A DNA stretch of 64,000 bases from a virus. The notes beneath the pieces are model-generated. The model was not told the origin of the DNA, did no database searches, and saw nothing but the letters and a program-made list of their open reading frames with translations. Both the position numbers and the translations under genes were made by a program. The stretch is taken from positions 156,367 through 220,366 of IMG/VR virus record IMGVR_UViG_3300021142_000002. One strand, given 5' to 3'. This document shows positions 2,543-61,113 of this stretch, one piece after another; within the stretch, counting starts at the first letter, position 1; the number at the start of each line of letters is the position of its first letter.

Positions 2543-3049
2543 CTATGCCGTCCAATCGTTATCATCTTCTTTAACCTGATCTTCCTCCTCCACTGGGAAG
2601 ATCAGGTCCCAGTGGGGTTCTTCAAGTAATACTGGGCGTGGCTTTGTCACGTATTCGCAGTCGCTTAATGCGACTATTCCGGTCCATTGACCGGATTCCC
2701 CCCGGTAATCGGGGTCAGTATACTTCCCCATAACAATGGGGTGACGGCCATCGTCATGGTCATTTTTGCACATTGTGACTCCCTTCACAATGAACTTATG
2801 CCCCTTGGGGCAATATAACATCTGTCCCTCAAAGGCCGTTAGAGACCATATGGCCTCTATGTCTCTTAATAGATCTAAAATTGGTTGCAACTGCCCTTCT
2901 GGGCAGCTGAAAGCAGCGGATATTACTATCCGCTGCATGTTCTCTATATAGAGCAGCATCCATCTGGGGGTGCTCTCTTCCTCATACTCGTGCGAGTATG
3001 TGGCAACAAACTCATTAACCATTTGCATCAAAATTTCAAAAATGTTCAT
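2543..3049 (-). CDS. Hypothetical acidic protein in a hairpin-dense, GC-rich gene
   Basis: A 168-residue acidic protein, unknown family. The middle has CPKGHKF and a third cysteine a few residues later (VTMC), a possible but unproven metal site; the C-terminus is very acidic (EEEDQVKEDDNDW). The ribosome site is AGGAG, eight bases before the ATG. The DNA differs from everything around it: 2641-2760 is about 53% G+C by my count, against about 30% in a line of the nearby gene at 4261. The coding region holds many perfect short-loop stems, for example 2575-2585/2596-2606, 2678-2684/2689-2695, 2771-2777/2786-2792, 2913-2922/2927-2936 and 2983-2990/2993-3000. It is a stand-alone unit with its own leader and terminator, as expected of an acquired gene. 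The leader is shared with 33158-33613. Confidence 0.75.
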   Translation of the reverse strand: MNIFEILMQMVNEFVATYSHEYEEESTPRWMLLYIENMQRIVISAAFSCPEGQLQPILDLLRDIEAIWSLTAFEGQMLYCPKGHKFIVKGVTMCKNDHDDGRHPIVMGKYTDPDYRGESGQWTGIVALSDCEYVTKPRPVLLEEPHWDLIFPVEEEDQVKEDDNDWTA

Positions 3050-3149
3050 ATCAAATCTCCTGCCTCTATGAGGACTTTAAAAGTTATAGTAAGTTGGATT
3101 ACTTATATAAGTTAATCCATTAAAATAATATATACATGAAATTTTTTTT
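3050..3149 (-). promoter_or_regulatory. Duplicated leader/promoter region, copy 1
   Basis: About 100 bases immediately upstream of the ATG of 2543-3049, identical to 33614-33712 except for one T in a T-run. It contains, in minus-strand order, an A-run, an AT-rich TATATATTATTT stretch that could be a promoter, a hairpin made by TGGATT and AATCCA around the palindrome ACTTATATAAGT, a small CCTC-ATA-GAGG hairpin, and the AGGAG ribosome site. Confidence 0.7.
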
Positions 3150-3182: not shown

Positions 3183-3220
3183 TATACAGGGATGAGGATT
3201 ATAATCCTCATCCCTGTATA
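3183..3220 (-). terminator. Perfect 38-bp palindrome
   Basis: A 38-base perfect inverted repeat after the stop of the membrane-protein gene at 3234-3515, followed a few bases later on the minus strand by a long T-run. Intrinsic terminator, separating that operon from the 2543-3049 unit. Confidence 0.75.
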
Positions 3221-21548: not shown

Positions 21549-21580
21549 GAGTATAGGATAGCCTAGGCTATCCTATACTC
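21549..21580. terminator. 32-bp palindrome between convergent genes
   Basis: Perfect inverted repeat between the converging ends of 19348-21534 (+) and 21585-22169 (-); flanked by A-run on one side and TATTTTAAAT on the other, as for a bidirectional terminator. Confidence 0.7.
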
Positions 21581-32233: not shown

Positions 32234-33049
32234 ATGTTATTAAGTGATTTAATGGAAAATCAAGAGCATCAAGTAATCCCAGGCAATGAAGCTATTTTAG
32301 ACTTAAAAGCTTTTAATAACTTCTTTGGTGGTTTTATAGATAGCTTAACTAAAGTATTTGATGCAAAAAGATTGATCCCTTTAATGCAAGGGAAAACCGA
32401 CGTATATGATGCGGTAAAGAATATTGAAAAATGTACAGTATTTGATTTAGAGCACTTTATTGTACCTACACCGGAATATGTTGTTGGTTTAATAGTACCT
32501 TATTTAACTGTATTAGAAGAAGTAACTACAGAATTACTGACAATTGATGATAGACTATTAACCCATTTAGAACAATGGGCTGGTAACATGATTACTGATA
32601 AAGAGTATGTTAATAAGGTATGGATTAACATGCCTGAGAAATCTAACATTGTTGAAGTTAATAGTGATAAATTGCATAAGTACTTTAGTGATGCAGCAGG
32701 TGATGGCTTAAACGGTCAATTATTTATTAATGTCTATAAAGATGCTAAAGGCTTAAAAGAAGCCGATGTCATGTTGGAAAAGTTAGTAGCCTTATCGTGC
32801 AGAGCATTAAATGGAAAGTTAATTGAAAGGGCCAACTCAGTGGCTAAAATGATCCATAGACTCTCTAATGATAATAGAGTAGATTCAGCACTATCTCAAG
32901 TCACTGCTGATAAATTAAAACCTATTACTGAATTGACTATTCAAGCGGCTAGAGAATTAGAACTATTAGCTATTTGTTTATTTCAAATCAGAACAGTAAG
33001 TTACGCATATAACGAAACATTGACTAAAATTAATGTGCAAATGAAATAA
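32234..33049 (+). CDS. Hypothetical protein (271 aa), possible virion protein
   Basis: Single plus-strand gene, divergent from the RecA-like gene across 93 bases (32141-32233) that should hold both promoters. Helical soluble protein with no recognised motif; helical, Leu-rich composition is like internal virion proteins of jumbo phages, but this is weak. Confidence 0.65.
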   Translation: MLLSDLMENQEHQVIPGNEAILDLKAFNNFFGGFIDSLTKVFDAKRLIPLMQGKTDVYDAVKNIEKCTVFDLEHFIVPTPEYVVGLIVPYLTVLEEVTTELLTIDDRLLTHLEQWAGNMITDKEYVNKVWINMPEKSNIVEVNSDKLHKYFSDAAGDGLNGQLFINVYKDAKGLKEADVMLEKLVALSCRALNGKLIERANSVAKMIHRLSNDNRVDSALSQVTADKLKPITELTIQAARELELLAICLFQIRTVSYAYNETLTKINVQMK

Positions 33050-33071
33050 AAAAAAAAGAAAAGATTGATAC

Positions 33072-33107
33072 ATAGAGTAGTCAGAGCATATGCTCTGACT
33101 ACTCTAT
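33072..33107. terminator. 36-bp perfect palindrome between convergent genes
   Basis: Perfect 36-base inverted repeat between 32234-33049 (+) and 33158-33613 (-). On the minus strand it is followed within a few bases by a T-run (TTTCTTTTTTTT), on the plus side by TTTGTT only. Probably a bidirectional terminator, stronger for the minus strand. Confidence 0.7.
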
Positions 33108-33110
33108 TTG

Positions 33111-33142
33111 TTAAATGCTATCCCCCCCCCCATAGCATTTAA
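33111..33142. other. 11-bp hairpin with a homopolymer C10/G10 loop
   Basis: Perfect stem 33111-33121/33132-33142 enclosing exactly ten Cs (ten Gs in the minus-strand RNA) at 33122-33131. It lies in the 3' untranslated part of the 33158-33613 transcript, just before the palindrome at 33072-33107. Confidence 0.7.
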
Positions 33143-33157
33143 ATTGATTTGTAAGGG

Positions 33158-33613
33158 TTAATATATCCATTCTATTAAATTTTCCTCACTGACCTCAAAA
33201 CCTACTTCCCGATCTCCTTCTTTCCAGAGGTTGGTTAAGACCTCCTTACCGCCATTTGGATGCTCAAGTGTTAATTCCGTTACTTGACGTTTTCCGTCAT
33301 CAATGAAAATATTACTTACAACCTTTAAAATGTTGTAGGTAATTCCAGCATTAACACTATCCCGAAGATCCATTATTAGATCCCCAGGTTTAAAGTTACT
33401 TTCGTTCATTACATTGTCGTAATCAACGAATGAATTCTGGAACTGATCCTCCCCCCCCGTATTTGTAATGAAAAGAGTTTTTGTTAAAATCTTTTCATTG
33501 TTCCCCTCGCCCGTGAACATATGGATACAGCCAATGACCGCGTTATCGGATCCAGCATAGTACCCCTTCTCAGAAAAAGGAAATAATTCTGTTTTGATTT
33601 TTATATATTTCAT
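33158..33613 (-). CDS. Hypothetical acidic protein sharing the duplicated leader
   Basis: A 151-residue acidic protein, unknown family, mostly beta-type by pattern (KYIKIKTELFPFSEKGYYAG... FKPGDLIMDLRDS). It is preceded by almost the same 100 bases as 2543-3049, though the proteins are not similar. The coding region has long G or C runs (G8 around 33450-33460) and several stems, for instance AATGAAAAG/CTTTTCATT (around 33465-33500), ATTAC/GTAAT nested in TTCGTT/AACGAA (around 33401-33430) and TGACG/CGTCA (around 33286-33300), but is less extreme than the other gene. Stand-alone gene with its own leader and terminator, as an acquired gene would be. Confidence 0.75.
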   Translation of the reverse strand: MKYIKIKTELFPFSEKGYYAGSDNAVIGCIHMFTGEGNNEKILTKTLFITNTGGEDQFQNSFVDYDNVMNESNFKPGDLIMDLRDSVNAGITYNILKVVSNIFIDDGKRQVTELTLEHPNGGKEVLTNLWKEGDREVGFEVSEENLIEWIY

Positions 33614-33712
33614 ATCAAATCTCCTGCCTCTATGAGGACTTTAAAAGTTATAGTAAGTTGGATTACTTATATAAGTTAATCCATTAAAATAATATATACA
33701 TGAAATTTTTTT
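33614..33712 (-). promoter_or_regulatory. Duplicated leader/promoter region, copy 2
   Basis: Counterpart of 3050-3149; identical through the start codon except one T less in the T-run. Beyond it the sequences diverge, so the repeat unit is only the leader. Confidence 0.7.
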
Positions 33713-33728
33713 TGAATTGACATAAATA

Positions 33729-33759
33729 CTCTAGGATAGCTAATATAGCTATCCTAGAG
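33729..33759 (-). terminator. 14-bp stem hairpin
   Basis: Perfect stem 33729-33742/33746-33759 with a 3-base loop, right after the stop of the 33771-34004 gene. It terminates the operon that ends there, insulating the 33158-33613 unit. Confidence 0.65.
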
Positions 33760-34898: not shown

Positions 34899-35741
34899 TT
34901 AAACTGAAACTTCTGCTTTAATAGAAGGCCATGCTGTGTAGCCATGTAAATGTACTTTATCTGGATCTTTCCATTTTAACAGATTATCAATATTATCCAC
35001 AGTTACTGTAGGTAACTCATAAGGCGTTCTTGATAACTGTTCATTTACTTGTTCAATGTGATTTTTGTAAATGTGTGCATCGCCAATAGTCCAAATAAAT
35101 TCACCAGGTTCATAACCCGTTACTTTAGCTAGTAAAACAGTAAATAAAGCATATGAAGCAATATTCCATGGACCGCCTAAAAAGACATCACAAGAACGTT
35201 GGTATAGCTGCAACGATAATTTGTCATTTCTAATATAGACTTGAAATAGCGTGCAACATGGAGCTAAAGCCATTTTATTTGAAAGAACATTTTCTACCGG
35301 AGAAATAGATTCAAGGGGTAGATCACCTAGATTCCAAGAACTGACAATATGTCTTCTAGAGTATGGTTTTTTTGCAATGTTGATAATCAACTCATGCAAT
35401 TGATCCATTTTCTCTGGACAATAACTTTCTAACATATTTGCATCCCGCCATTGCTCACCATAGATTGGACCAAGATCACCATATTTATCTGCCCAACTAG
35501 ACCATATTTTAACACCATGATCTTCTAGATACTTAATATTGGTATCACCCGATATCATCCAAATTAATTCATGAATGATCCCTTTAAACCACATTTTCTT
35601 TGTAGTAATTAAAGGAAATGATTTACTTAAATCAAATCGTTCCTGATGGCCAAAAATAGATAATGTTCCAGTTCCTGTTCGGTCATCAGATGGAATACCT
35701 CCATTTAATATTTTTTCTAACAGATTTAAATATTGTTTCAT
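34899..35741 (-). CDS. thyA: Thymidylate synthase
   Basis: A 280-residue ThyA-type thymidylate synthase, which methylates dUMP to dTMP using methylene-tetrahydrofolate. It has the typical N-terminus DRTGTGTLSIFGHQERFDL, then FPLITTKKMWFKGIIHELIW, GPIYGEQWR, the active-site cysteine in LAPCCTLFQVYI, QLYQRSCDVFLGGPWNIASY (dUMP binding), and GDAHIYKNH. Normal length for the family. ATGA overlap with 35738-36616. With dCTP deaminase (126-650) it supports a phage-encoded route to dTTP. Confidence 0.97.
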   Translation of the reverse strand: MKQYLNLLEKILNGGIPSDDRTGTGTLSIFGHQERFDLSKSFPLITTKKMWFKGIIHELIWMISGDTNIKYLEDHGVKIWSSWADKYGDLGPIYGEQWRDANMLESYCPEKMDQLHELIINIAKKPYSRRHIVSSWNLGDLPLESISPVENVLSNKMALAPCCTLFQVYIRNDKLSLQLYQRSCDVFLGGPWNIASYALFTVLLAKVTGYEPGEFIWTIGDAHIYKNHIEQVNEQLSRTPYELPTVTVDNIDNLLKWKDPDKVHLHGYTAWPSIKAEVSV

Positions 35742-40137: not shown

Positions 40138-42579
40138 CTATAAATAAGTAATGGTAGTTTTTTCATTATAGACATCAGGGACTATTACATTTCTATTATC
40201 AATCACTACAATATCATGGTTACTTAATCCTGTAATGATATCATTATAGTGATTAACCATAAAGACTTGTGAACATAACTTCATGTCTATAAAGGTTTTA
40301 ATATAGCTATATAGACTTGTTCTGTGATTGTAATCAAAAGTAGCCCCTGTTTCATCTAGATAGACTGGATAATCATGTAAGTTTAAATACTCTCGCATAA
40401 CTATCATAAAAGATAGATTAATAATTTCTTGCTGAGACTGACTGCCTAAAGCGATATCTTTAATAGTATTAACAGTTGATTTAAAAGGAAAAGTATAGCT
40501 TAATGCACCATTATCCATATTACAAGCTTCTACTTTAAGCGTATAAGCCCAAACTTGTTTAATAATTAAGTTTATACTATCAACATAGCTAGTAATAAAA
40601 CCTAGCATTTCATCAGCTATTATCCCGGTTTTGGGTGATAAGTTTTCCTCTACTACTAACCAGCCTTTTTGTTTAAATAAAACTTTTTTATATTCATCTT
40701 CTAATTCTTTAATGGTATTGGTTAAATGATTTCGTTTATTTAACAATCCTTTAATGGTGGCTAGATCATTGTACAATTGTTCACACTGCTTTTTTGCGTC
40801 TTCTTGTATCAAACTATCAGTTGCTAATTTAAATTGCTCAGATAGTCGTTTAAGGATGTTATTGCCCTGTTCTTGTAGTCTACTATAGTTAGTTACATTC
40901 TTTAGAATTAACTTACAAGTATTAATTTGCTCATTGAGTAATTTCTTTTCATTTAAATAATGATTAATACTATTTTCAATAGTAATGACCCTTTCATTAA
41001 CCTGACCGTTATATTTATCATAAGTAGTTAAACAAGTCTCTAGATACTTTAATCGTTTAGTGCATTCTAGTCTTTTAGAATGCATATCTATATTTTGTTC
41101 CCATTTACAGATATGATTTAAAAAGAGACTAGGATTTTTTAATATCTCTAGATTAGAATTAAACTTATCCCAAAAACTAAAAGGTAAATTAATTTCCTTT
41201 TTCATTCGACCAATTTTAGTTAATAGTCGATATAACTCATTAACTTCTTCAGCTTGTGGTCTAAGTATCTCTAACTCAGCCATTAAATCTGCTTTAATTT
41301 TAGATACATTAATAATAGACTGCTCTATTTCTTTAATAGTATCTTCTATACTAATTCCCTTTAGATTAAACTCATGTGTGCATTTAGGACATGTTATTGT
41401 TTCTAGATCTTTATTATAATGCTCTAATTTATCGGTTAGATTACTAATGGATTGAATAGTTCGTGTTAACCTAGCTTCAATGTAATTATATCCGTCTAAA
41501 ATATCTTTGCATTCTTCCGACGTTCTAATCGGTGTATTAAATAGAAATAGATTAGAAATTTCATTAGCTAAAAAATGTAAGTTAGGAATATATTCTAAGC
41601 AATCATCATTGCCTAATTCAATAACAGGAATACTATTTAATGATCCTTTTATTTCTTTTATTTCATTTTGTAGGTGACTAGCATTAGGTACTGTACCATC
41701 AAATGAATGGGTTAAATCAGATAGCTCACTGGCTTCTTTAGTTAAGTCATTGATTAGAGTTTGTATTGCAGATAACTTTCCTATACACGTTCCTATATAC
41801 TCATTTAATTCATCTACACTATTAATACCCTCTGTAGGCACTCTAGTATCATCAAACTTTAATAGCTGATTTTTAATTTGATTCATTTCAGCATATAGAC
41901 TTTCTATAACTAAGAAAGTAGCATTACTGCTAGGTAGCTTTTGAGTAGTAAAAGGAATTAAAGAATTTAATTGTTGTTCTAATTCTTGTTGCTTGCTATC
42001 AGTATCTTCTGGAATATCTAATTGTTTTAATTTAGTTTGAGCATCTGTACTTTTATTAACTAAATGCTTTAATACAGCATGACTATCTCTTAATGACTCT
42101 TTTGCCTTATTGTGCAGAGTAATAGCGTATTGTAACTCTAAAGGAGATATTTCAGTGAGTATGTTTCTTCTTTCACTAACTGACATGTCAGTAAACTTTA
42201 ATTCCCCTATTAATAACTTATGAACTAATGGCGTATAATTAAACTCTTTAACTACCATGTCCATATGGACACTGGCATTAGCATTACTATGAACATCTAT
42301 GCCATCTTTAATAAAAGTGTGTTTACCATTTTTACTCAGTATAGATATCAATTCGTATAGATGTCCATTATGCTCTATTTTAATTCTTTTTTCACCTTCT
42401 TCTAAGTAATTAGAAGGCTGGGCTGGAAAAGGAGTAGCCTCTCTTAATAGACTCGATTTACCACATCCATTAGTACCAATAATCAATGTAGTCATTTTAT
42501 CAATTGATAATTCAATTGAATCTATTTTGGCTAATAATAGTGGTCTAAATCCTTTTAAGTAAATAGAAATAATTTTCAT
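40138..42579 (-). CDS. SbcC/Rad50-like recombination ATPase
   Basis: An SMC-family ATPase (T4 gp46 type) acting with a nuclease partner on DNA ends. The start is placed at 42577-42579 (MKIISIYLKGFRPL) after GGAA; the frame extends 16 codons further but into the upstream terminator hairpin. Walker A is GTNGCGKSS at residues 35-43. Two long coiled-coil arms surround a zinc hook (CPKC, around residue 395). The signature-like SQSQQEIINLSFMIV and Walker B YPVYLDETGATFD are at the C-terminus. About 813 residues, longer than T4 gp46 (560) but normal for the family. The partner nuclease (SbcD/gp47) was not seen in this window. Confidence 0.88.
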   Translation of the reverse strand: MKIISIYLKGFRPLLLAKIDSIELSIDKMTTLIIGTNGCGKSSLLREATPFPAQPSNYLEEGEKRIKIEHNGHLYELISILSKNGKHTFIKDGIDVHSNANASVHMDMVVKEFNYTPLVHKLLIGELKFTDMSVSERRNILTEISPLELQYAITLHNKAKESLRDSHAVLKHLVNKSTDAQTKLKQLDIPEDTDSKQQELEQQLNSLIPFTTQKLPSSNATFLVIESLYAEMNQIKNQLLKFDDTRVPTEGINSVDELNEYIGTCIGKLSAIQTLINDLTKEASELSDLTHSFDGTVPNASHLQNEIKEIKGSLNSIPVIELGNDDCLEYIPNLHFLANEISNLFLFNTPIRTSEECKDILDGYNYIEARLTRTIQSISNLTDKLEHYNKDLETITCPKCTHEFNLKGISIEDTIKEIEQSIINVSKIKADLMAELEILRPQAEEVNELYRLLTKIGRMKKEINLPFSFWDKFNSNLEILKNPSLFLNHICKWEQNIDMHSKRLECTKRLKYLETCLTTYDKYNGQVNERVITIENSINHYLNEKKLLNEQINTCKLILKNVTNYSRLQEQGNNILKRLSEQFKLATDSLIQEDAKKQCEQLYNDLATIKGLLNKRNHLTNTIKELEDEYKKVLFKQKGWLVVEENLSPKTGIIADEMLGFITSYVDSINLIIKQVWAYTLKVEACNMDNGALSYTFPFKSTVNTIKDIALGSQSQQEIINLSFMIVMREYLNLHDYPVYLDETGATFDYNHRTSLYSYIKTFIDMKLCSQVFMVNHYNDIITGLSNHDIVVIDNRNVIVPDVYNEKTTITYL

Positions 42580-61079: not shown

Positions 61080-61113
61080 GAGTAGACTAGCGGAATATTC
61101 CGCTAGTCTACTC
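61080..61113 (+). terminator. 34-bp perfect palindrome
   Basis: Perfect inverted repeat between 60790-61056 and the last fibre gene. No T-run after it. Confidence 0.65.

Follow-up and report, generated by a model that had tools for sequence, protein, structure and literature searches.

Intrinsic (Rho-independent) terminators, including those that work in both directions between convergent genes, are among the closest described counterparts of the element considered here, a hairpin with a loop of ten identical bases at a gene end of a jumbo phage. As in such terminators, a strong stem follows the stop codon in this phage, convergent junctions are strongly preferred, and nine or ten U lie behind many of the minus-strand palindromes. 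Unlike in the terminators, however, the phage stems are often loopless, the U tract is mostly 8-14 nt away and in many cases missing, and the hairpin with the C10 loop has no U tract and is not called by a terminator scan. The stabilising 3' hairpins and REP elements of bacterial mRNA offer a second comparison, as a stem near the stop codon could stall 3' exonucleases. The phage stem is also near the stop codon, but the stems vary in sequence from gene to gene and form no repeat family. As for the jumbo phages, strong termination at predicted terminators is reported for AR9, which has two multisubunit RNA polymerases (PMC5312081), and termination by the AR9 nvRNAP is expected to differ from that of cellular enzymes (PMC7598289). 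Like AR9 and phiKZ, the phage studied here encodes multisubunit RNA polymerase genes.

Results

The virus and the genes around the junction

The window is the whole stretch of 64,000 nucleotides that was analysed, bases 156367-220366 of the 220,366-b record IMGVR_UViG_3300021142_000002, and the positions below refer to it unless they are marked as genome or locus positions. Judged by its protein matches, the virus is a nucleus-forming (phiKZ-like) jumbo phage: it has a match to the nuclear shell protein (phrog_4795, E 5.3e-34), three proteins that match RNA polymerase beta subunit families, a match to the phiKZ-type DNA polymerase and a UvsX-like protein with 43% identity to its counterpart in Vibrio phage BONAISHI. 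Two genes converge on the hairpin from either side (Table 1): 32234-33049 on the plus strand and 33158-33613 on the minus strand. The former has kept its place beside UvsX in BONAISHI, sm033 and FLC9. For the protein of the latter, tblastn revealed no homologues in phages, no match was obtained in PHROGs or Pfam, and no relative was found in the related loci or elsewhere in the phage's own genome; a pattern search of genome contigs returned 156 matching stretches, none of which encodes a relative. A resemblance to the protein of a sister gene (E 0.51) was rejected, and the single-sequence structure prediction had a mean pLDDT of 49. The window also contains a thymidylate synthase gene (34899-35741) and a gene for an SbcC-like subunit of a palindrome-specific nuclease (40138-42579), the latter in a genome that is rich in palindromes.

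Table 1. Features of the junction and of the adjoining genes (window positions).
Feature	Position	Strand	Evidence or remark
Hairpin under study, 11-bp perfect stem, loop C10 (plus strand) / G10 (transcript)	33111..33142	-	Stem search, folding compared with shuffles
C10 homopolymer loop	33122..33131		Equal length in contig IMGVR_UViG_3300021127_000026
Loopless palindrome, 18 bp per arm, at the convergent junction; likely two-way transcript-end element	33072..33107		Relatives: same position, other sequence
A10 on the plus strand (U10 in the minus-strand transcript), trailing the palindrome 33072-33107 by 14 nt	33048..33057	-	
Further hairpin (14-bp stem, loop 3) in the space that separates the leader from the next minus-strand gene	33729..33759		Terminator-like on both strands (scan)
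271-aa ORF, converges on the junction	32234..33049	+	phrog_4682 (no functional annotation)
Orphan ORF, 151 aa; its 3' UTR contains the C10 hairpin	33158..33613	-	
C8 on the plus strand, G8 in the coding sequence of the 151-aa orphan	33451..33458	-	
Repeated leader, about 100 bp; contains a small hairpin and, ahead of the ORF, a Shine-Dalgarno-like AGGAG	33611..33716	-	Six genome copies

The hairpin and its loop

The initial annotation had described a perfect 11-bp stem around ten identical bases, its position in the 3' untranslated region of 33158-33613 with ten Gs in the transcript, an adjoining 36-nt palindrome and a G8 run within the same gene, all of which were found. The arms, TTAAATGCTAT (33111-33121) and ATAGCATTTAA (33132-33142), form 11 perfect pairs; the stem is AT-rich, with two G-C pairs among the 11, and the arms without the C10 are a perfect loopless palindrome of 22 nt. 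For the hairpin on the transcript strand, a minimum free energy of -10.3 kcal/mol (z -4.4) was predicted, compared with -9.0 kcal/mol (z -6.2) on the opposite strand, and none of 200 dinucleotide shuffles matched this fold on either strand. C10 occurs once in the window, which has 33% GC, and two of 100 dinucleotide shuffles contained one. When the phage's own genome and the sequences of BONAISHI, sm033 and phiKZ were searched, no other hairpin with a stem of at least eight pairs had a mono-base loop of at least five C or G. Hairpins that resemble terminators at gene ends are well known as such, but one with a pure C/G loop is new within these four genomes. In the open-licence PMC literature, no published description was found of a C/G homopolymer loop or of loopless palindromes at such phage transcript ends. 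A comparison of the hairpin region with Rfam gave only chance matches below the gathering threshold, to eukaryotic microRNA models and a Wolbachia sRNA.

Palindromes at gene ends

Perfect stems of at least 11 pairs (loop of at most 15) number 74 in the genome, whereas each of 12 local shuffles contained 1-6 of them, and the arms of the C10 hairpin thus belong to a strongly enriched class. Outside the genes, the commonest loop length is zero (37 of 76 hairpins with a stem of at least 10 pairs). Hairpins that end transcripts in both directions should be present at convergent junctions and mostly absent from divergent ones, which was the pattern in the phage's own genome (14 of 15 convergent compared with 3 of 14 divergent junctions). 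The same trend was seen in three relatives: BONAISHI (20 of 21 and 1 of 22, respectively), sm033 (14 of 18 and 0 of 18) and phiKZ (7 of 20 and 2 of 19). From these counts we infer that the palindromes probably act as two-way transcript ends. Loopless perfect palindromes with 14-19 bp per arm stand at gene ends genome-wide, for example at 2500-2535, 3183-3220, 21549-21580 and 61080-61113, often with U9-10 at 6-14 nt behind them on the minus strand, and a perfect 23-bp stem with a 12-nt loop lies across the end of a 40-aa ORF (L014:19096-19153; genome 139096-139153).

At the ends of minus-strand genes, at least seven T follow 14 of the 36 palindromes, 13 of them at 6-14 nt, compared with one of 18 at the ends of plus-strand genes. 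The distance between palindrome and U tract is 8-14 nt in most cases, and many palindromes have no such tract. Because the U tracts trail minus-strand palindromes and the majority of genes are on the minus strand, there is an excess of A9/A10 runs on the plus strand (28, compared with four T9/T10 runs). The palindrome lies 1-23 nt from the stop codon in 48 of the 53 genes that have one at their end; the distance of 50 nt at 33158-33613 is due to the C10 hairpin, which occupies the gap and is separated from the palindrome by 3 nt.

It had been claimed that nothing here resembles a usual terminator. This is true of the C10 hairpin itself, which does not combine a GC-rich stem with a T-rich stretch directly behind it, has no U tract of its own and received no call in the intrinsic terminator scan. 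The palindrome 33072-33107 and its U10 were not called either, the gap of 14 nt being longer than the 0-2 nt that is set for a U tract behind a stem. However, the claim does not extend to the region: a palindrome followed after 14 nt by U10 is the layout of many gene ends in this phage, and the whole region therefore resembles a terminator of this virus.

The same junction in relatives

The junction was compared in 45 loci, 42 from the search (one of which, L022, is the same virus) and three isolates; the loci L108, L118 and L119 were left out because they were cut too near the match. The divergent gene was recognisable in 40 of the 45 loci, 39 of which are relatives, and not in the other five. 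By a hand count in which some rows represent the same virus from different samples, a hairpin of at least 12 pairs with a loop of 0-8 is present at the junction in 18 of the 39 relatives' rows, for example in L083 (19 bp, loop 0), L090 (21 bp, loop 1) and L121 (17 bp, loop 0). No hairpin of this size was found in the remaining 21 rows, 13 of which belong to a GC-rich, FLC9-like group; by eye, FLC9 does have a hairpin at the junction, whose loop exceeds the length that was searched. The palindromes of the relatives are unrelated in sequence to 33072-33107, and the junction palindrome thus keeps its place and not its sequence. No C or G run of at least seven was found at the junction in the 39 rows, and the sole other run of this length among the related loci is a G7 elsewhere in L090, a locus with small orphan ORFs at the same junction. 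Since the relatives have a palindrome of another sequence and no C run, the C10 hairpin would be an addition of this lineage. The initial annotation had made its reading of the loop depend on the relatives; these, as well as the sister genes described below, have unrelated loops, which counts against that reading.

Assemblies and length of the runs

The contig IMGVR_UViG_3300021127_000026 was aligned with the record over 30.65 kb with five mismatches and three single-base indels, and given these eight differences elsewhere it is a distinct assembly, which makes an artefact in one assembly unlikely. It agrees with the record through the hairpin, including the same C10. The indels affect A/T homopolymers without exception (T9/T8, A9/A10 and A5/A6). 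The T9/T8 and A9/A10 differences, at 3142 and 3167, are located in the leader and the U tract of a leader gene. The lengths of C10 and C8 are equal in both assemblies, although two assemblies carry little information on rare length variants. The suggestion of a slippage hotspot with length switching was not supported, as both C runs are the same in the second assembly even though three A/T runs differ. Another contig, 3300021132 (36.5 kb), is 100% identical and lies outside the hairpin region.

Leader-bearing orphan genes and G/C runs

The genes that carry the repeated leader are GC-richer than most, and their coding sequences are full of short hairpins. Short perfect hairpins, some across the stop codon, occur at 2543-3049 (minus strand), L009:3778-4242, genome 139549-140010 (L014/L015) and L015:9236-9927; in the last of these (gene "149", genome 149236-149927), the long frame is out of frame with the start codon beside an A-run, which may reflect a broken gene, slippage or an assembly error. 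In a post hoc comparison, done after the pattern had been noticed, the five leader genes with a usable frame ranked 1, 2, 4, 5 and 12 of 155 for excess folding relative to synonymous-codon shuffles, 33158-33613 being fifth and the second-ranked one an open stretch read without a start codon. The gene caller was crude and missed most leader genes, which were added by hand for these ranks; the sixth leader site (116754-116840), with a 28-aa ORF only, was excluded. An excess of mRNA folding across the genome was considered as a peculiarity of the phage group and rejected as not peculiar enough: the mean excess per 330 nt was -7.7 kcal/mol in the phage's own genome (155 genes) and -4.7, -6.5 and -7.4 kcal/mol in BONAISHI, sm033 and phiKZ (45 genes each), compared with -4.4, -4.9 and -1.5 kcal/mol in T4, GAP32 and T7 (32, 27 and 21 genes, respectively). 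Tandem 3' hairpins were present in four of the five leader genes tested (24, 139, 158 and 33158-33613), with the first hairpin at or adjoining the stop codon. The loops of these first hairpins are unrelated, namely AAA within a larger stem, a short AT loop, GGCATA and G10.

The record contains two G/C runs of ten, while 0.007 runs of at least ten are expected from the base composition. All three G/C runs of at least seven in the genome (the C10 loop, the C8 in 33158-33613 and G10 at 139516) fall in leader units; within borders that were drawn by hand and post hoc, these units make up 1.75% of the genome. The sister gene 139549-140010 has a terminator-like stem, and the run at 139516 is the C10 arm of this stem; in the transcripts, one run of ten is G10 (33158-33613) and the other is C10 (139549-140010). 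A higher GC content of the leader units together with slippage might account for the concentration of the runs there, as might a function of the tracts. G-quadruplex contacts of the G10 loop had been proposed; an intramolecular G-quadruplex in the hairpin was not supported by the quadruplex option of ViennaRNA: G10 alone gave no quadruplex and the hairpin retained its stem, and when the whole gene was folded, quadruplexes were predicted at the G8 run and one further coding site, not at G10.

Discussion

In this study, the C10 hairpin was found between a stop codon and a loopless palindrome, in a tandem layout and as a member of a class of perfect stems that is enriched in the genome. Considering the palindromes at gene ends, the unrelated palindromes of the relatives and the tandem pairs in four of five leader genes, we read it as probably the hairpin nearer to the stop codon in a tandem 3' end, the stems of which would terminate transcription and protect the mRNA, with the C10 as a tolerated expansion at the dyad centre. 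The hairpin pair would stop the phage RNA polymerase and may also protect the message against exonucleases at its 3' end. The arms could once have been a loopless palindrome, like most in the genome, that was imported with the gene, and the C10 may be the product of slippage or of a small insertion in the middle of the dyad, tolerated because the working part would be the stem and not the loop. The run of ten has the appearance of an unusual expansion, not of a switch. Some observations speak against this explanation: the stem is weak (about -10 kcal/mol), AT-rich and without its own U tract, the gap of 8-14 nt between palindrome and U tract differs from the textbook spacing, and a hairpin of 12 or more pairs is absent in 21 of the 39 relatives' rows. 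Moreover, a function of the stem alone leaves the C10 loop unexplained, and the confinement of the G/C runs of at least seven to the leader units (three of three) hints at something more.

Alternatively, the hairpin may have no function and be mutational debris, for example of fold-back or template switching together with slippage upon entry of the orphan gene, with the palindrome alone ending the transcripts. The weak stem, the lack of conservation of the hairpin across the relatives and the unrelated loops of the sister genes are all consistent with debris, as is the fact that the junction palindrome suffices at most junctions and that L090 also has orphan ORFs at the same place. However, the paired 3' hairpins in four of the five tested leader genes and a fold that was not equalled in any of 200 shuffles make this explanation unlikely.

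It is quite improbable that the G10 loop is itself the working part, which would bind a protein, stack with other G10 loops intermolecularly or kiss the C10 in the 3' UTR of 139549-140010. This would agree with the location of the only two G/C runs of ten in 220 kb, along with the G8, in leader-bearing units and with the presence of G10 in one transcript and C10 in the other. However, six bases of the sister transcript's C10 are paired in its own terminator-like stem, the class has just two genes and no conservation, and no intramolecular quadruplex was predicted for G10; the kissing of G10 and C10 is a weak rival. A broader version, which we regard as a long shot, is a small regulon of orphan genes with a shared leader, heavily folded coding sequences and paired 3' hairpins, in which the G10/C10 tracts would be docking sites that kiss or bind a phage protein involved in storing, protecting or routing the messages in the infected cell.

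Long G/C homopolymers are generally prone to slippage, and a phase-variable tract, in which slippage in C10 or in the coding G8 would alter the expression of the orphan gene, could be suspected from the A/T homopolymers that do differ in length between the two assemblies. This is very improbable, as C10 lies outside the coding sequence and both C10 and C8 are of equal length in the two assemblies, even if these cannot reveal mixtures within a sample. Although palindromes and homopolymers are classic trouble spots of sequencing and assembly and the sequences of the locus come from metagenome assemblies only, a homopolymer error or fold-back chimera is extremely improbable, because two assemblies with eight other differences agree through the hairpin and isolate phages carry the same class of palindromes.

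In the literature that we found, the transcript ends that nucleus-forming phages produce with their multisubunit RNA polymerases are sparsely described. The gene ends of this genome supply a clean series of loopless palindromes together with one natural variant that has ten extra bases at the dyad centre, which is a ready test of the stem versus the tip. Compared with the C10 itself, the orphan genes with the shared leader and the unusual folding of their messages are the sharper lead.
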